This document shows positions 36,313-63,760 of a stretch of DNA of 64,000 nt, piece after piece. The translations under genes and the position numbers were made by a program. This DNA is from Rothia aeria (lineage in GTDB: Bacteria > Actinomycetota > Actinomycetes > Actinomycetales > Micrococcaceae): the NCBI GenBank assembly GCA_002355935.1, contig AP017895.1, positions 1,736,001 through 1,800,000 on the forward strand, written 5' to 3'. Under the pieces are notes generated by a model. The model was given only the letters and a program-made list of their open reading frames with translations. It did not search any database and was not told the DNA's origin. The number at the start of each line of letters is the position of its first letter. The stretch's first letter is position 1.

Positions 36313-38090
36313 TTACTTCTCGTCTTCGTCCTTCTTCTTCGGCTTGAAATCAACGCCTGCTTCCTTACGCTGCTGCGGCGTGATCGGCGCGGGTGCGGCA
36401 GTCAGCGGGTCATAGCCGTTACCGGTCTTCGGGAAGGCAATAACCTCGCGAATCGAATCAACCCCCGCAAGAAGCGAGATAATGCGATCCCATCCAAATG
36501 CGATACCGCCCATCGGAGGTGCGCCGTACTTGAAGGCGTCCAGCAAGAAGCCGAACTTCTCCTGTGCTTCTTCCTCACCAATTCCCATGACCGCAAAAAC
36601 ACGTTCCTGCACGTCACGGCGGTGGATACGGATAGAACCGCCACCGATCTCGTTACCATTGCAGACAATATCGTAGGCGTATGCCAGCGCCGAACCTGGA
36701 TCCTTGTCAAAGGTATCCAAGAACTCGGGTTTTGGCGCCGTGAAGGCGTGGTGCACGGCAGTCCATGCGGAGTGCCCCAGCGCGACATCTCCTGACTCGG
36801 TGGCCTCTGCGGCAGACTCGAAAAGAGGCGCATCTACTACCCACAGGAACGACCACTCGCCGTCCTTAATAAGACCGGTACGGTGGCCGATCTCAACACG
36901 GGCAGCGCCCAGCAGAGCACGCGCCTGCTTAGCTTCACCGGCGGCGAAGAAGATGCAGTCCCCGGGTTGGCCCCGGTTGCTGCGGCAAGACCCGCGCGTT
37001 CTTCATCGGTGATGTTCTTCGCAACAGGGCCGGTCAGTTCGCCGTCTTCCTGCACGAGGACATAGGCCAGGCCCTTCGCACCACGCTGCTTTGCCCATTC
37101 CTGCCATGCATCCAGGGTGCGGCGCGGCTGAGAAGCACCACCGGGCATCACCACGGCACCCACGTAGGGAGCCTTAAACACACGGAACGTGGTGTTGGCA
37201 AAGTAATCGGTAAGTTCGGTCAGCTCAAGACCAAAACGCAGATCTGGCTTGTCGGTACCGTATTTCTCCATCGCTTCGGCATAGGTCATACGGCGAATAG
37301 GACGGGGAACCTGCACATCAATCAGGTTCCAGACGGCCTCAATAATGCGTTCGCCCAGGTCAATAATGTCGTCTTGGTCTACGAAGGATGCCTCAATATC
37401 GAGCTGAGTGAACTCAGGCTGACGGTCCGCACGGAAGTCCTCATCGCGGTAGCATCGAGCAATCTGGTAGTACTTCTCAATGCCGCCCACCTGCAGGAGC
37501 TGTTTAAACAGCTGAGGTGACTGCGGCAACGCATACCAAGAACCAGGTGCCAAACGCGCAGGAACCAGGAAGTCACGGGCACCTTCGGGTGTCGAACGGG
37601 TAAGAGTGGGGGTTTCAACCTCAAGGTAGCCGTCATCAGCAAGCAGGTTGCGTGCCGCGCGGTTAGCATCAGAACGCAGGCGCATGATGCGAGCAGGTTC
37701 GGGGCGGCGAAGATCGAGATAACGGTAACGCAGACGCGCCTCTTCACCAACCTCAACATGCTCGTCAATCTGGAATGGAAGCGGTGCCGCAGTATTGAGA
37801 ACCTCAACCGCAGAAACTTCAACCTCAATTTCGCCGGTTGCAAGATTCGGGTTTTCATTTCCCTCGGGGCGCTTGGTCACCTGACCGGTTACACGCAGAA
37901 CGTACTCATTACGCAGGTGCTCAAAATCATCTTCGTTATGGAACACGCACTGGGTAACGCCCGCGCGATCACGCAAATCGACGAAAGCCACGCCGCCGTG
38001 GTCACGACGACGAGCTACCCAGCCGGTGAGGGTTACGGTTTCTCCGATGTTGGCGGCGGTGAGCTCGCCATTGGTATGGGTGCGAAGCAC
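36313..38090 (-). CDS. aspS: Aspartyl-tRNA synthetase, frame broken once
   Basis: The N-terminal OB-fold ([19 protein letters not shown]) and the class II core ([18 protein letters not shown] near 215) are in one frame. The C-terminal part, including the motif 3 region [14 protein letters not shown], is in another. Adding one base at the C4 run 36960-36963 joins them to 592 residues, the bacterial-type length. It charges tRNA-Asp, and tRNA-Asn too if non-discriminating, which the sequence alone does not decide. The break is almost surely a sequencing error in an essential gene. hisS lies upstream. Confidence 0.9.
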
Positions 38091-47512: not shown

Positions 47513-48577
47513 CTACAGGTTAATATCGGGGGCTTCTAGCCCCAGGTGCTCCCACGCGGCAGGCAGCGCCACACGCCCGCGAGGGGTGCGGCCGATCAGC
47601 CCTTCACGCACCAGGTAGGGTTCGGCTACTGTCTCCACGGTCTCGGTTTCTTCACCAACGGCGATAGCCAGGGTGGATAGCCCCACCGGTCCCCACCGAA
47701 CTTGTGGATGAGCGATTCAAGAACGGCGCGGTCCAGGCGGTCCAGCCCGCGCTCATCCACTTCATACATGTCAAGGGCGGTTGCCGCATTGTGGGCGTTA
47801 ATATTGGGTACATCATTCACAAGGGCCCAGTCGCGTACACGGCGGAGCAGCCGGTTAGCGATACGCGGTGTGCCGCGTGAACGGCCCGCGATCTCTGCGA
47901 ACCCCTCACTGGTGATACTCATATCCATCAGACCGGCACTGCGGCGTAGCACCAGCTCAAGCTCCGGCACGGAGTAGAACTCCAGATGCCCGGTGAACCC
48001 AAAACGGTCACGCAGCGGCCCGGGGAGCAGCCCGGCACGGGTTGTGGCACCCACCAGGGTAAACTGCGGTAGTTCAAGGGGGATGGAGGTGGCTCCCGCT
48101 CCCTTACCAACCACAATATCCACGCGAAAATCTTCCATCGCCATGTACAGCATTTCTTCGGCGGGGCGGCTCATGCGGTGTATTTCATCCAGGAAAAGCA
48201 CCTCGCCGGGGTTAGCGACGAGAGGATGGCCGCTAAATCGCCGGAGTGCTGAATAGCTGGGCCGGAGGTGATGCGCAAAGGGGCATCCATCTCAGCGGCA
48301 ATAATCATGGCGAGCGTGGTTTTGCCAAGCCCGGGAGGGCCGGAAAGAAGCACATGATCAGCGCTGCGGCCCCGCATTTTCGAGGCTTCCAGCACTAGGG
48401 AAAGCTGCTGCCGCACCCTTTTTGCCCCACGAAGTCACCAAGCGATTTGGGGCGCAGGGCCGCCTCAATCATTTTTTCTTCGGGTTCTTCTTCCATGGCA
48501 ACTAGCCGCTGCTGCCCGGGCACCTGACCGGGTGCGTAACCGCCCGACGGCGTAGGCTCATAGGGGTTATCTGTCAC
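47513..48577 (-). CDS. ruvB: Holliday junction helicase motor RuvB, frame broken three times
   Basis: Four pieces join after one added base at each of T5 (48419-48423), G4 (48208-48211) and C4 (47691-47694). The result is 355 residues, the family length, ending EAPDINL. Walker [13 protein letters not shown] and Walker B (repaired) [12 protein letters not shown] are present. The winged-helix end reads [22 protein letters not shown] (core GRTPRGR). RuvB drives branch migration with RuvA. Three errors in one 1 kb gene make a technical cause very likely. Confidence 0.88.
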
Positions 48578-50283: not shown

Positions 50284-51041
50284 TTATTCGGCTTCTAGCT
50301 GGGCGATAACCTCTGCGGAAACGTTTGCGTTGGAGTAGACGTTCTGGACGTCGTCGAGTTCTTCGACCGCATCCGCGAGTTTGAGGAACTTTTTGGCGCC
50401 GTCAAGGTCGAGGTCTACCTGCATGGTGGGGCGGAATACGGGGTCGTCGTTGTTGTACTCCAGTTCCGCTTCATCCAGTGCTTTGCGGATTTCGGGCAGG
50501 TCGGTTGCGGCGGATACGACGGTGAACACGTCGCCTTCGTCCAGTACTTCTTCGGCGCCTGCATCAAGCACGGCCATGAGCACGTCGTCTTCGGTGAGCC
50601 CGTCGGTTTTTGCTACTTCGGCCACGCCTTTACGCTCGAAGAGGAACGCCACGGAGCCCTGGTCTGCCATGGTGCCGCCGTTGCGGGTCACGGCCAGGCG
50701 CACGTCTGATGCGGCACGGTTGCGGTTATCGGTCAGGCACTCGATGTACAGTGCGGTGCCTTGCGGGCCGCGTGCCTCGTACATGATTTCGGTGTAGTCG
50801 ATGGTTTCGCCGGTCAGCCCAGCACCGCGTTTAATGGCGCGGTCAATATTGTCGTTGGGCACCGAGTTCTTTTTGCTTTCGACACGGCAAGATCGAGTGC
50901 GGGGTTGCCTGCAATGTCTGCCCCGCCCATGCGGGCGGCTACTTCGATTGCCTTAATGAATTTGGCGAATGCCTTCGCGCGCTTGGCGTCAATCGCGGCT
51001 TTCTTGTGTTTGGTGGTGGCCCATTTGGAGTGACCCGACAT
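50284..51041 (-). CDS. yebC: YebC/PmpR-family regulator (TACO1-like), frame broken once
   Basis: The ATG at 51041 ([21 protein letters not shown]), behind GGGAG, is the canonical start. The frame changes at T5 (50870-50874) and continues as [16 protein letters not shown]. Repaired length is 252 residues. The family acts in transcription control and, by recent work, in helping ribosomes through proline runs. It heads the ruvCAB run, as usual. Confidence 0.92.
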
Positions 51042-51139
51042 TCGTTTCTCCCTTACGTTAATGTTCTGTGCGGGCGCACGTGGGTGGCCGCGCGTCAATA
51101 CTTTTCAACTATACCGGCTGATGTGCGCTGGCAGTAGTT

Positions 51140-57646: not shown

Positions 57647-58132
57647 ATGAGTTCTTCAATCTCTCAGGCAGTCCGTGAGCTTGCCGAACCAAAGCTGGCG
57701 GAGTTCACGGCGAAGCTGATTCCTACGGTTGATCCTGCGCGGATTTTGGGTGTACGCATGCCCGCGCTGCGCAAGCTCGCTAAGAAGCTGCTGCGTGAAC
57801 ATCCGCCGGAAGTCACGGAGTTTAAGGCGGCGGTTCCGCATGATTTTCAGGAAGAAGATCTGCTGCATGTGCTGCTTCTGAATGAGGAACGTGACTTTGC
57901 CACCTGGCATGCGGAAATTACTAATTTCTTGCCATATATGACGAACTGGACTCTTACGGATGCCGTCTCCCCAGCCTGTGTGAAGGGCCGCAATGCAGCC
58001 AACCTGCCGCAGCTGGAGCGGGCCTGCCTCGACTGGATGGTTGATGATCGTGTGTATGTGCAACGTCTAGGCGTGGTGGTGCTCATGTCATTGTTGGGCA
58101 CCGAGTATTTCTCACCGGAGCATCTGCGTAAG
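57647..58132 (+). pseudogene. N-terminal part of an AlkD-like DNA alkylation repair protein, fused in frame to dld
   Basis: About 161 residues (MSSSISQAVRELAEPKLAEF to EYFSPEHLRK). The DNA alkylation repair HEAT-like family shows in ILGVRMPALRKLAKKL near 33 and WTLTDAVSPACVKG near 101. Such proteins are normally about 220-240 residues. Here the reading frame passes without a stop into the C-terminal half of a D-lactate dehydrogenase. The last third of the alkD gene is missing. Confidence 0.75.
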
Positions 58133-59240
58133 GAGTACGAGTACAACGGCATCGACACCTGCGCCGTGGACGGCATGTGCCAGACCCGCTGCCCCGTGAA
58201 CATTAACACTGGTGACCTGATTCGCCGCCTGCGTTCTGAGAACCAGGACAAGCTGGCTGCTACCGGCTGGAAGGTTGCCGCGCAGCAGTGGGGCGTCATG
58301 GATAAGGTCGCCGGCAAGGCCCTGACCGTGGCTCAGAAGCTGCCGTTCCCCGTGGTGCACGGCACCACCAACATTGCCCGCAAGGTCATGGGCGACGACA
58401 CGGTCCCCTCCTACAAGAAGGGCCTGCCGGTCGGTGGCCTGGCACGTAAGCCGCACAAGGACGCAACCGCTGAGATTGTGTTCTTCCCCGCCTGCGTGAA
58501 CTCCATGTTCGGCGGCGTGGACGGCGACGGCAAGCATGACCCGGTACGCACCCCAGGCGTTCATCCGCCTGTGTGAGCGTGCGGGCGTGAAGTACCGCAT
58601 CCCGGACAATATTGGTGAGATGTGCTGCTCCACCCCGTGGAAGTCGAAGGGCTTCACCGACGGCTACTCGATCATGAGCGACCGTGTGCTGAAGTCCCTG
58701 TGGGAGGCTACTGACGGTGGCCGCCTGCCGGTCGTGTGCGACGCTTCGTCCTGCACTGAGGGTCTTAATGTGATGCGTGAGAAGGTTATTAAGGCGCTTG
58801 AGCACAAGATTGTGAACGGCCTGAAGCCGGGCGAGCCGGACTTCTCGCGTCTGCGCATGTACGACGCGGTGCAGTTCGCCGCCGACAACATGCTGGACAA
58901 GCTGACCGTGTCTGCTCCCCTGCCGTCGATTGCACTGCACCCGACCTGCTCCATGACTCACCTGGGTACTCAGCCTGCGTTTGAGAAGATTGCGAACGCG
59001 ATGAGTGCCGACGTGTACGTACCGAAGCACTGGGGTTGCTGTGGTTACGCGGGTGACCGCGGTATGCTGCACCCGGAGCTGACGGCGAGCGCTACGGAGG
59101 CGGAGGCTGCGGAGCTGAGCGAGCAGAAGCAGTTCGCCGCATACATTTCGGCGAACCGCACCTGTGAGCAGGGCATGACGGAGGCGACCGGCCACACCTA
59201 CCAGAACGTGCTGCAGCTACTGGAACGCACCACCCGCTAA
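58133..59240 (+). pseudogene. dld: C-terminal half of an FAD-linked D-lactate dehydrogenase (Fe-S and CCG domains)
   Basis: It begins YEYNGIDTCAVDGMCQ with the Fe-S cysteines (C-x5-C-x3-CP), and continues through CCG-type blocks FFPACVNSMFGG, GEMCCSTPW, HPTCSMTH and HWGCCGYAGDRG. It ends QLLERTTR. The N-terminal FAD-binding half, some 500 residues, is missing. A further frame change lies at C4 (58551-58554), one base too many or two too few. Codon use is very biased (CTG, AAG, GAG), unlike the alkD part, so the two parts come from different genes. The full enzyme oxidises D-lactate to pyruvate at the membrane. Confidence 0.8.
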
Positions 59241-59271
59241 AGGGCTGAGCGCATAGCAACGGTATAAAGAA

Positions 59272-59312
59272 GGGACCCGGCGGGCTATCTGATGGATAGA
59301 CCGCCGGGTCCC
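59272..59312 (+). terminator. Terminator after the dld remnant
   Basis: Arms GGGACCCGGCGG (59272-59283) and CCGCCGGGTCCC (59301-59312), with an inner CTATC/GATAG stem and loop TGATG. It lies 32 bases after the dld stop. Being GC-rich, it belongs to the host backbone and marks the left edge of the AT-rich island. Confidence 0.9.
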
Positions 59313-59362
59313 TGAGTGTATGGCTATAGCAAGAATATATTTAGAAATTAGGATATATATTA

Positions 59363-61442
59363 TTACAGTAATGAATATATAAATTCTGCATCACCATCAT
59401 CTATTATTTTCACGCCACCATCTAGCATTGTTTTATAAAATTTATTAACTTCAGACAAATTTGATAAATTCCTAAATGTAAAATGTTTCCCTAAATCTAC
59501 TGTAACACCATCAATCACCACATTCTTAATGGATTTTTCAAAATAGAGATACGCGCTCCCCTTGCAGGCCTGACCTTGATTATTTCCAGCATGATACATG
59601 AAATATAAATAATACCTATACATCCATAGCTGATCCGAAAACTCGTAACCACAATCACATGGCTTCCTATACCAAGGATCTGGATTTGTGTCCAATTCTT
59701 CCTTTTTTGAACATACAGGATAGTGCGCATCCCACAATGCCCTAGCCATCACCTCCGCAATCCCATCATAATTTCTATTCTTTCGGTAGTAAATAATAGT
59801 GGCAAGAATCATATTAATATCATCTATTCGTGACTGAATCACGGAATGACAGATATCATTTACTGAATTCAAATCCATCTTCTTATCATAATTAAATATA
59901 ATTATCATAAGAAGATAGGAATATATTTCCTGATTTGATCCGGAATCAATATATTCCTCAATCTTACCCTTCAAAGTATCCTTAATTCGATTAAAATATA
60001 TCTCGGCCGCCTTTTCAACTTTATTTAATATTAAGTCCCTACCCTGGGCATCTTTTCCGAAAACTAGCTCACGCACAAGAATCTGAGAAAAATCAATAAT
60101 TTTTTGCGTTATGGTTGAGTCCATAAAGGATAAATCTAATATCCTTTCAAATAGACTCATACCCGTCAGATGGTGAGGTTCAAAAAATATATCAATCAAG
60201 CACTCCCTATAATCATCTCCAAGAGCTTTAATTATAGGCTGCGGATGATACGATTTGCCTATCTGAAGAGGTCTTATGGAATTTGCAAGAACTGCGGGTA
60301 TACATTTTAGGCTACCCCTATTTCCTCGTTCTTCTTCCGATACACAATAATCAATAAACTGTGAAATCTTATCCTTAACCCTCCTTTTCCCAAGATATTT
60401 TATATTATTGTCTGCTTTTTTGGCATTTCAGGAAGAGTATCAAAAAAGGCAAATATAGCATCTTTATTTTTATTCCCCTCAAATGGGAAGGATTCAATCT
60501 TTGTTTTCGAATCATTCAAGGACAGAGAATACTCTCTAATTTTCTCATTAAGAGACTTTTTGAAGTCTATTAGCTCCATGTCGGTATTAAAAGCAAAGAC
60601 TATATCGTCAACAAATCGCGAAAATGAATACCCCTTGTTTATATTAAGCAGTATTTCATCAAACTTACACATATATACTTCAGCTATAATTCTTGTAATT
60701 AGGTTACCCGTCGGCAATCCATGAGTTTCTCCACTTTGCGAGTTTTGGATTAATCTATCCAGTGATTTTCCAAATGTATAGTCTTTCCAATTCCTTACAC
60801 CAATATTTCGCTTTGCATTATCTTTCCCATCCAACATCCACTCAATACTATGAGTATAGATAGAATGATAAAAATTTTGAACATCCGTTATATATCTTTT
60901 ATTCTTCCCAAACAGAAGAGTGCTTCTTAAATCCTGTGTGATAGCAAATTTAAACACTTCACTGCCAAAAAACTTTGACATCGAATTTTTATTCTGCAGG
61001 AATATATTTGAAATCACCTCCTTTTCCTGTTCTATATAATACGCAAGGTTACCATATGAAAAAAGGTTAATAAGTTTATATTCACGCCGCGTGTGTAGAT
61101 TCTTCGGAATAGTGAAAGATGTCGGAGTTGTCCATTCTTTCCGAATCCTCGCCTTTCCGAATTCTTGAGAAAAATAAAAATGTTTCCATCTATCTCCATC
61201 GTTGAGCCAATTATAAAATTCAGATAGATTAAATATTCCTTCATAGAACTGATCATTACTTATATACTGTTCTTCTTTATACGCACCAGATCTATTAATA
61301 AACTTATTTGCCAACGAGTCAAAATATCCATATTTAATTAAGCTTTCAGCACTCAATATTTTCGAATAGTATCTTTCTAATTCTTTACAGTATACTTCCG
61401 GAAAATAGATGCCACTGACTGTGGCCTATTACATGAACTCAT
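59363..61442 (-). CDS. Reverse transcriptase of the DRT/UG/Abi type with long C-terminal extension (putative antiphage), frame broken twice
   Basis: The ATG at 61442 has AGGAGG seven bases upstream. One added base at A4 (61402-61405) and at T6 (60416-60421) joins three frames to 693 residues. Reverse-transcriptase motifs follow in order: YITDVQNFYHSIYTHSIEW near 190 (first catalytic Asp), GETHGLPTGNLITRIIAE near 240, SRFVDDIVFAFN near 277 (FVDD at the YxDD site) and SLNDSKTKIESFPF near 311. The last ~350 residues are helical with no domain I can name. They hold RALWDAH (R-x5-H, possibly HEPN-like) and CDCG. No maturase domain is present, so it is not a group II intron protein. The low GC, about 30 percent by eye, points to transfer. 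Confidence 0.82.
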
Positions 61443-61468
61443 TAAAATCCTCCTAGGTAAAAACGATA

Positions 61469-61497
61469 ATTATAAATATCATCATGATATTTATAAT
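61469..61497. promoter_or_regulatory. Palindrome in the reverse-transcriptase leader
   Basis: Perfect 13-base arms ATTATAAATATCA (61469-61481) and TGATATTTATAAT (61485-61497) with loop TCA, 27 bases upstream of the start codon. It could be an operator, the promoter region, or the end hairpin of a small RNA. The rest of 61443-61723 holds no protein gene; GC rises towards thrS. Confidence 0.55.
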
Positions 61498-61723
61498 GTT
61501 TTAGACTCCCTTATCCGAATCGTACAATTACCGGCACCTCCGAATGGCAACGAACGTAAGTACCATCATTCACACTAGCACGAAGACACCCGCCCGGACT
61601 AGGAAAAACTCCACCACAACACAACTTTCTGTACCCAACCACGCTCCCCCACCCGCGCCTCCGCAGCTTGTTGCCGCGAAGGGGTGGTTTCTATATATAT
61701 GAGTTAGACCAGCAAGCCTAGTA

Positions 61724-63760
61724 TTACTCAGCAGCTTCGGTGCTGGGCTTGGGGTCTTCATTTACCCTGTTCCGAATGTGGTCGACAATGCGTGCCACCG
61801 CCTCGTCAACGGGTACGCCGTTTTCTTGCTTGTTGCCGCGGAAGCGGAATGAGACTGCGCCAGCCTCCGCATCCTCGCCGCCAGCAATCAGAATGAACGG
61901 CACTTTCTCGGTAGATGCGGTACGAATCTTCTTCGTAAAACGATCCGAACCGTAATCGACCTCAACGCGCACACCGTGCGCACGCAGCTTATCCGCAATC
62001 TCGGTCATGTAGTCGTTGAAAGCCTCCGCCACAGGCACACAAATCACCTGCACCGGTGAGAGCCACGCCGGGAACGCGCCCGCATAGTGCTCAGTCAGCA
62101 CACCCAGGAAGCGCTCAATCGAACCGAACTTAGCCGAGTGAATCATCACCGGCTCCTGAATCGAACCGTCCGCAGCCTGGTACTCCAAACCAAAGCGGCT
62201 GGGCTGGTTGAAGTCATACTGCACGGTAGACATCTGCCAGGTGCGGCCAATCGCGTCCTTCGCCTGCACCGAAATCTTCGGGCCATAGAACGCGGCCCCA
62301 CCCGGGTCAGGCACCAGCTCAAGGCCGGTCTCCTTCGCCACCTGCTCCAGCACGGCGGTAGCCTGCTCCCACTGCTCATCGGTGCCGATAAACTTATCCT
62401 TCTTATCGCCCTCAGTGTCGCGGGTCGAAAGCTCCAGGTAGAAGTCAGTCATGCCGAAATCTTCCAGCAGGCTCAGCATGAAATTCAGCAGGTGCCGCAC
62501 CTCATCGGGTGCCTGCTCCTTCGTCACATACGAGTGCGAATCGTCCTGCGTAATCATGCGCACGCGGGTTAAGCCCTGCAGCACGCCCGATTTCTCGTCA
62601 CGGTACACGGTGCCGAACTCGAAGAAACGCAGCGGCAGCTCACGGTACGAACGCCCACGCGAACGGTAAATCTCGTTATGCATGGGGCAGTTCATGGCCT
62701 TCAAACGGTAGTTGCCGTTATCGAGCTCCATCGCAGGGAACATGCCGTCCGCGTAGTACGGCAGGTGCCCGGACGTGTAGAACAGGTCTTCCTTCGAGAT
62801 GTGCGGGGTGCTCACGTACTGGAAACCCTCAGCAATATGGCGGGCGCGCACATAATCTTCCATCTCGCGCTTAATCACGCCGCCCTTGGGGTGAATCACC
62901 GGCAGGCCGGGGCCAATATTCTTCGGGAACGAGAACAGGTCAAGCTCCTTGCCCAGGCGGCGGTGGTCGCGGCGCTCAGCCTCAGCAATACGGTGCTTAT
63001 ACTCCACCAGCTCGTCCTTCGTGGGCCAGGCGGTACCGTAAATACGCTGAAGCATGGGGTTCTTCTCAGAACCGCGCCAATACGCGCCACCGGCACGCAT
63101 GAGCGCATAGCCATTAGCAATCAGTTTAGTATTCGGCAGGTGCGGGCCGCGGCACAGGTCATTCCACAGTACCTCACCGGTTTTCGGGTGCACATTGTCG
63201 TAAATCGTGATCTCGCCCGCACCAACCTCAACCGAGGCGCCCTCGGCGGCATCCGCGCCCGAGCCGGGGCCTTGGCTGAGCGAAAGCAACTCGAGCTTAT
63301 ACGGCTCGTTCTTCATCTCTTCAACCGCTTCATCATGGGTCACCACGCGGCGGCGGAACAGCTGCCCCGACTTGACGATCTTAATCATCGACTTCTCGAT
63401 CTTCTTCAGATCCTCAGGGGTGAAGGGCTCAGCCACATCAAAATCAAAATAGAAGCCATCCGTAATATAGGGGCCAATGCCCAGCTTCGCGTCCTTGCGG
63501 TACTCCTGCACCGCCTGCGCCATCACGTGCGCCGCAGAATGGCGCAGCACATTCAAGCCATCCGGTTCGTCAATGAAAACGGGCTCAACGGTATCGCCCT
63601 CAGAGAGCTTGTGTGAAAGGTCAACCAGCGTGCCATTCACGCGGGCAACCACAATCTTCGCGTTATCCGCAAAGAGTTCAGCGGCGGTGGCGGCAGTAAC
63701 CTCGCGCTCCTCACCGGATACGCTGATCATGATGGGTGCTGACAGTTCAGCGGCAGACAT
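61724..63760 (-). CDS. thrS: Threonyl-tRNA synthetase
   Basis: 678 residues, full length. The N-terminal TGS domain (about 1-70) and the editing domain ([16 protein letters not shown] near 78) lead to the class II core. The zinc Cys lies in [18 protein letters not shown] near 345 (core NCPMH), and [14 protein letters not shown] is near 390. It charges tRNA-Thr and clears Ser-tRNA-Thr. In related genomes the HIT gene follows; here the RT island, dld/alkD and the channel gene stand between. Confidence 0.97.

Follow-up and report, generated by a model that had tools for sequence, protein, structure and literature searches.

The closest described relative of the gene reported here is AbiK of the Lactococcus lactis plasmid pSRQ800, represented by PDB entries 7r06, 7r07 and 7z0z. 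AbiK is a stand-alone gene whose product combines a reverse transcriptase (RT) core with a helical domain and carries a priming tyrosine and an xVDD motif, and the Rothia aeria gene is alike in its domains and motifs and apparently also in standing alone. PMC9508834 describes DNA as growing from Tyr44, and the substitutions Y44F and D247N as abolishing AbiK activity. Homologues are also carried by the staphylococcal plasmids SAP108A and pST75; their RT cores are 42.0 and 40.7% identical to that of the R. aeria gene.

The window analysed here, a 64,000-nt stretch of the R. aeria genome, holds an AT-rich island in which abiK spans 59363–61442 on the minus strand. GC content is 31–37% in the island, compared with 54–65% alongside and 56.4% over the whole window, and values below 45% GC occur in 13 of 253 one-kb steps across the window, nine in the island and four at the window start. 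Positions 1–1750 form a second low-GC stretch (41–44%), which carries a minus-strand ORF of 363 aa. The ATG-to-stop span of abiK is about 692 codons, and an AGGAGG ribosome-binding site (61449–61454, minus strand) precedes the ATG at 61442. This agrees with the sequence-only reading of this DNA, which had described an AT-rich island at these coordinates with one gene of 693 residues after repair, behind its own ribosome site; the RT motifs it quoted, FVDD included, are likewise present. Just upstream of the ribosome site lies an AT-rich perfect palindrome with 14-nt arms and a 1-nt centre (61469–61497), a possible operator.

Next to the island, thrS (61724–63760, minus strand) is intact. At the distal edge lies a terminator-like stem (59271–59313), which gave a sub-threshold Rfam hit to mir-55 (E = 0.015); a similar stem precedes dld in the five other oral-clade genomes that were aligned by eye. 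Convergent with the island, at 57647–59240, the 5′ part of alkD continues into the 3′ remnant, itself in two frames, of a gene that we take to be dld. This junction is similarly disturbed in the sister genome G005, and in other oral Rothia dld is a long ORF. Of the two housekeeping neighbours named earlier, thrS stands as described, whereas dld is present only as a 3′ remnant fused to alkD. No other genes were seen among the ORFs of the island and no tRNA was found in the window, while promoter-like sites (13 versus 10.5 expected by chance) were uninformative.

By sequence, the gene belongs to the AbiK family. Its RT half matches the PADLOC AbiK profile at 378.2 bits (E = 2.5e-113, profile positions 13–298 of 546) and its C-terminal half at 120.6 bits (E = 2.7e-35, positions 344–545 of 546). 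The next family for the RT half is DRT6 (171.8 bits), followed by UG30 (160 bits) and the best DRT4 model (146 bits), RTs of the UG/Abi lineage whose cores can be aligned with that of the window; the C-terminal half matches only the two AbiK models in PADLOC at E up to 1. What had been taken for a large unknown C-terminal region is the AbiK helical domain. Whole-genome scoring with AbiK gave E values of 5.1e-117 for the RT half and 4.4e-49 for the C-terminal half, and AbiK 7r06 is the best PDB sequence match for both (1.5e-63 and 8.9e-8, respectively). A fold predicted for the RT core from 12 aligned sequences, at moderate confidence (mean pLDDT 67.5), returned AbiK chains as all five of its best PDB hits (E = 2.2e-22 to 3.1e-21). 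A tree of 28 RTs puts the window RT in a six-member clade (support 100/99) that includes pSRQ800 AbiK and the two staphylococcal plasmid AbiKs, although the tree contained no retron or group II rows and is therefore no test of a retroelement origin. Two loci were left out of this tree, L066 (the same record as L003) and L091 (the same region as L080). The tree check proposed at the outset thus placed the RT among AbiKs, and the earlier assignment to an RT of Abi/UG type, apparently a stand-alone one, is upheld. RVT_1 is the sole Pfam domain found in the gene, consistent with the earlier observation that it encodes no maturase or integrase.

The residues on which AbiK depends are retained. A tyrosine (61264–61266, minus strand) aligns with the priming Tyr44 of Lactococcus AbiK and is present in all six aligned AbiK-group proteins, that of the window included. 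The alignment also shows the motif A aspartate (DVQNFY; DVQNFYHSIYTHS, 60883–60885, minus strand) and the catalytic FVDD motif (60604–60615, minus strand), which is YVDD in L. lactis AbiK, to be conserved in the window. Over 580 aligned positions the window protein is 36.0% identical to pSRQ800 AbiK, from which it also differs in being chromosomal rather than plasmid-borne, in its broken frame in the assembly and in a Cys-rich insert of the form C-x17-C-x-C-G in the helical domain (59648–59713, minus strand). The insert, which at a guess might bind metal, is absent from the L. lactis AbiK, from the two plasmid-borne staphylococcal AbiKs and from a further Rothia AbiK (genome G026). What is new concerns the host, the site and an odd sister protein in R. 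mucilaginosa, and not the mechanism; the family is already known.

In the deposited sequence abiK is not intact and is split across three frames, all on the minus strand. A leader frame of 21 codons runs from the ATG at 61442 to a stop (61377–61442) and is a candidate for the RT N-terminus. The RT core (fingers and palm) occupies an open frame at 60400–61425, listed as a 318-aa ORF (60400–61356) from a TTG, and the helical domain one at 59363–60427, listed as a 278-aa ORF (59363–60199), also from a TTG; PADLOC and PDB 7r06 identify both, and the fold search the former. The first frame change lies in a 46-nt frame overlap (61425–61380) with no run longer than four T or three A, the second in a 25-nt overlap that holds a run of six A (60416–60421, minus strand; A_AAA_AAG in the upstream frame). 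A homopolymer origin had been claimed for both breaks: it fits the second, given the six-A run, and is weak for the first, where there is no long run. Seven of the 36 homopolymer runs of at least six in the window fall in the island.

These breaks are, in our view, likely to be assembly errors, with the gene intact in the living strain. Intact Rothia homologues exist (G026 and G012), and the assembly of R. aeria JCM 11412 is based on PacBio alone (PacBio RS II, HGAP), which we counted toward assembly error. Relative to the sister genome G005, whose ThrRS is 99% identical to that of the window, the window splits 4 of the 28 sister ORFs that could be aligned (ORFs of at least 200 aa, 80% identity, 70% coverage), including aspS (36325–38090), ruvB (47516–48428) and yebC (50287–51053). 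In the reverse comparison, 2 of 26 window ORFs are split in G005, one of them the out-of-frame tail of the same aspS and the other a 229-aa ORF that lacks an NCBIfam match at 1e-20; this ORF is split whichever way the comparison is run and was excluded from the window errors. The aspS gene is single copy, since matches of 98 and 96% come from its two pieces alone and the other hits in the genome, at 32–39%, are taken to be other class II synthetases. Cells need AspRS to live, so some frame breaks in an assembly with a broken sole aspS must be false, and the same most likely applies to the two in abiK. That the breaks are sequencing slips had been assumed without proof in the sequence-only reading; the broken aspS now lends that assumption support.

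A recently decayed pseudogene, with both breaks real and no full-length protein, is an unlikely alternative to assembly error. The frames of abiK stay open and AbiK-like until the breaks, and the window also has breaks in the single-copy aspS, in ruvB and in yebC. Single-base gaps are also more numerous in the window than in G005 (17 versus 9, of which 8 versus 2 in runs of at least three; 16,380 aligned nt in blocks longer than 400 nt at 85% identity), and completeness is 95.86 although the genome is closed, compared with 99–100 in 30 of 34 relatives. Decay is favoured by the adjoining alkD–dld remnant, whose disturbance in G005 too indicates that decay does occur nearby, by the first break with its lack of a long homopolymer, and by the plain fact that both breaks stand in the deposited sequence. 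Two breaks within 2.1 kb are denser than in the rest of the window.

Programmed −1 frameshifting, at least at A_AAA_AAG and in control of a toxic enzyme, is highly improbable. The second break does coincide with this heptamer, of the dnaX type, in the correct phase, but no stable structure lies downstream (z = 0.51; 139 of 200 shuffles fold as well or better) and no Shine–Dalgarno-like stimulator was seen upstream by eye. The genes of G026 and G012 are intact single frames, and their aligned residues at this place are not encoded by such a heptamer; full-length protein would also require another shift, at a site that has none. With structure, conservation and a second slip heptamer all missing, frameshifting finds no support. 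For an associated ncRNA, Rfam gave, besides the mir-55 hit, one to RT-17, an RNA family known from the vicinity of RT genes; this hit, likewise sub-threshold, lies over the A-run region (60408–60493, minus strand; 21.2 of 40.4 bits), an overlap taken as chance given its E value of 0.83. A mobile retroelement RT, of a group II intron or retron, is barely credible and was rejected on profile scores: an RT domain within an AT-rich island would suit it, but retron and group II RT profiles reach only 39 and 38 bits, far under their cut-offs of 235 and 300, against 378 for AbiK, no maturase or endonuclease domain is present, and Rfam over 58900–62000 has no match at gathering score, with two hits below.

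The R. aeria abiK is thus very probably a single-gene abortive-infection system, gained horizontally and residing in a slot 3′ of thrS for exchangeable, mostly defence genes. By homology, its product would be an RT-like polymerase that forms oligomers, attaches the first nucleotide to one of its tyrosines and then makes untemplated single-stranded DNA. After phage infection, this DNA synthesis would stop phage spread, by an intervening step that PMC9508834 leaves open even for the founding AbiK. The gene would have been acquired horizontally and placed in the exchangeable thrS slot. The suggestion of a candidate phage-defence gene was right in kind, in that the protein is probably antiphage judging from its sequence, and needs correction in that it belongs to a named family.

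AbiK is rare among relatives of R. aeria. At E ≤ 1e-40 it occurs in 3 of 395 Micrococcaceae genomes, all three Rothia; in a sample of 396 Actinomycetota, the genome of the window is the only one with a match. At E ≤ 0.001 the profile matches 4 of 35 Rothia genomes and 1 of 14 control genomes (Methanosarcina acetivorans), with no control matching at 1e-40. The fourth Rothia match, in G017 (L004), is a DRT3 pair, with Drt3b (5.8e-121) beside Drt3a (1.1e-55); this pair lies on contig C5 and the thrS of the same genome on C1. The earlier statement that Rothia-like bacteria have no described DRT system is contradicted by AbiK in 3 and Drt3a with Drt3b in 1 of the 35 Rothia genomes. The part of PMC4244168 available does not name AbiK in Actinobacteria, and, among the matches listed, the papers on AbiK together with Rothia are, by title, oral-microbiome, clinical and microbiota studies, in which ‘abik’ is taken to be something other than the gene.

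Among plasmids, 206 of 72,556 records match, 92 from Enterococcus and 69 from Staphylococcus, and in 68 of the 206 the match extends over 80% or more of the query. The best-ranked are staphylococcal; among the matches listed, those from Enterococcus cover 41% of the query and most of those from Staphylococcus cover all of it. Phage records yielded 8 matches in 50,697, none across more than 80% of the query, and viral contigs none with the window core as query; with alignment A1 as query, they yielded five distant RTs. The tree places the G026 AbiK with those of Bacillota (97/93, starred) and the window AbiK with the R. mucilaginosa protein (93/89, not starred). These separate placements point to two entries of AbiK into Rothia as the simplest reading, ahead of transfer the other way. 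The rarity of AbiK among Actinomycetota, set beside the plasmid matches, suggests that the window abiK was itself gained horizontally.

The R. mucilaginosa protein (strain 141_RMUC, genome G012, L003/L066) is an intact 867-aa ORF that matches the AbiK profile at 9.1e-109. It resembles the window AbiK in its thrS site and its sister position in the tree, is 37.3% identical to it over 662 positions, and shares the Cys-rich insert, here C-x18-C-x-C-G. It differs in its catalytic motifs: the motif A aspartate is glutamate, FVDD is DFDS and LPTGN is IPWGS, while the priming tyrosine is kept. RVT_1 is recovered by Pfam only at E = 0.0056, and about 147 residues, an N-terminal extension that the window protein lacks, precede the start of the AbiK profile. 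From its sequence, this protein, seen in one genome, has likely lost activity; the loss is not certain, as an acid is kept at motif A together with the first aspartate of motif C. An AlphaFold model (mean pLDDT 50.1, with the extension poorly modelled) was set aside.

Each of the three AbiK genes of Rothia directly follows thrS, at a distance of 150–280 nt from its end. Comparing thrS neighbourhoods across Rothia, as proposed in the sequence-only reading, revealed a cargo hotspot rich in defence genes. The first kb behind thrS is AT-richer than thrS by at least 0.10, a threshold picked after an initial look at the flanks, in 19 of 28 assessable Rothia genomes; these are 32 of the 33 genomes with thrS (G010 being omitted for its contig ends) less four with under 1.1 kb of flank. 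By the same measure, the listed Rothia loci give 19 of 26 behind thrS, compared with 0 of 29 behind alaS, 0 of 28 behind hisS and 0 of 29 behind aroC, and upstream of the four genes no flank is AT-rich among 30, 29, 30 and 30 assessable loci. In the genus of G042, another of the Micrococcaceae, a gene with a HIT-type motif is the direct neighbour of thrS in 30 of 30 listed loci, with no AT-rich flanks. These counts by locus use the 30 loci listed per gene, of 33, 35, 34, 35 and 60 matching genomes. In Rothia, the distance from thrS to the HIT motif ranges between 197 nt and over 11 kb, and in 5 of 27 flanks the motif is not reached; set against the adjacency in the other genus, this indicates that an old thrS–HIT junction has been split in Rothia. 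Several of the nine genomes without an AT-rich flank have ordinary-GC genes in between (for example G009, G024, G025 and G008, with the HIT motif 4–7 kb behind thrS), so not all of the splitting is due to AT-rich cargo.

The cargo of the slot differs between genomes. In 12 of the 19 AT-rich slots a PADLOC family matches at E ≤ 1e-8. AbiK occupies three (G000, G012 and G026), Gabija GajA with GajB two (G013, 7e-173 and 1.3e-157; G021, 4e-218 and 5.5e-155) and Septu PtuA with PtuB two more (G006 and G028). Single slots hold a GmrSD-type gene (G014; HEC-06, 1.4e-73, with Pfam GmrSD_N and GmrSD_C), AbiU (G002, 9.6e-35, Pfam AIPR) and a type II methyltransferase (G034, 3.6e-68). AAA ATPases with AriA or NsnB matches are found in G016 (3.9e-28) and, more weakly, in G015 (5.6e-12), a broad family and hence a weaker sign of defence. 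In G005, a GHKL-like protein with DUF4325 matches DrmA weakly (2.6e-7). In the remaining six of the 19 filled slots, PADLOC matched nothing within the limits applied, which were 1, 1e-5, 1e-20, 1e-8 and 1e-3 for the main protein or pair per slot, small ORFs aside (for G001 and G004, none at 1e-8). They comprise a 781-aa protein with a weak CHAT match (G017, L054:8681–11026), a 584-aa protein with a weak pentapeptide repeat (G027, L040:8669–10423) and a single family of 332–413 aa, membrane-bound as judged by eye, in four species (G001, G004, G007 and G020; L048, L053, L060 and L062). Members of this family, candidate new defence genes, are 45% (G001), 29% (G007) and 56% (G020) identical to that of G004. 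One site with differing defence cargo, and control flanks at zero, is the pattern of a defence hotspot.

In G012 (L042), a direct repeat of the thrS end, 131 nt long and located 3414–3544 nt behind thrS, forms the boundary of the AbiK-like cargo. It comprises 52 nt of coding sequence and 78 nt beyond it (the terminator) and is 89% identical; this looks like the insertion of a unit that brought its own thrS end. G014 has a 23-nt repeat of the thrS end, and none was found in the other 17 of the 19 filled genomes at E = 0.01. The window island has no integrase among its ORFs, and the longest repeat flanking it is 10 nt, with shuffles reaching 12. In the other slots, cargo may have been replaced by homologous recombination in the flanks. 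A search of the literature on Rothia antiphage defence, hotspots and thrS islands, a weak one in which subscription papers are thinly covered, did not find this hotspot, nor was it among the 8 of 19 matches listed on defence hotspots in Actinobacteria. In the available text of PMC13347742, one paper on Rothia and DefenseFinder, the tool was used for restriction-modification.

More tentatively, and with appreciable doubt about the whole, the thrS junction could be a Rothia-specific, integrase-free defence slot that AbiK entered at least twice. The R. mucilaginosa AbiK, having kept the tyrosine and fold, given up the standard carboxylates and gained an N-terminal extension, would then defend or regulate without normal DNA synthesis, and the unassigned cargo, above all the membrane family of G001, G004, G007 and G020, would represent new defence systems.

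For Rothia, the thrS slot offers a short and cheap place in which to search for new defence genes, and pseudogene calls made from this assembly are unsafe, given that it breaks reading frames. The described AbiKs that we found in the literature come from Lactococcus; the actinobacterial branch with the Cys-rich insert, together with the sister whose catalytic motifs are altered, provides natural variants, which bear on how DNA synthesis by AbiK stops phage.
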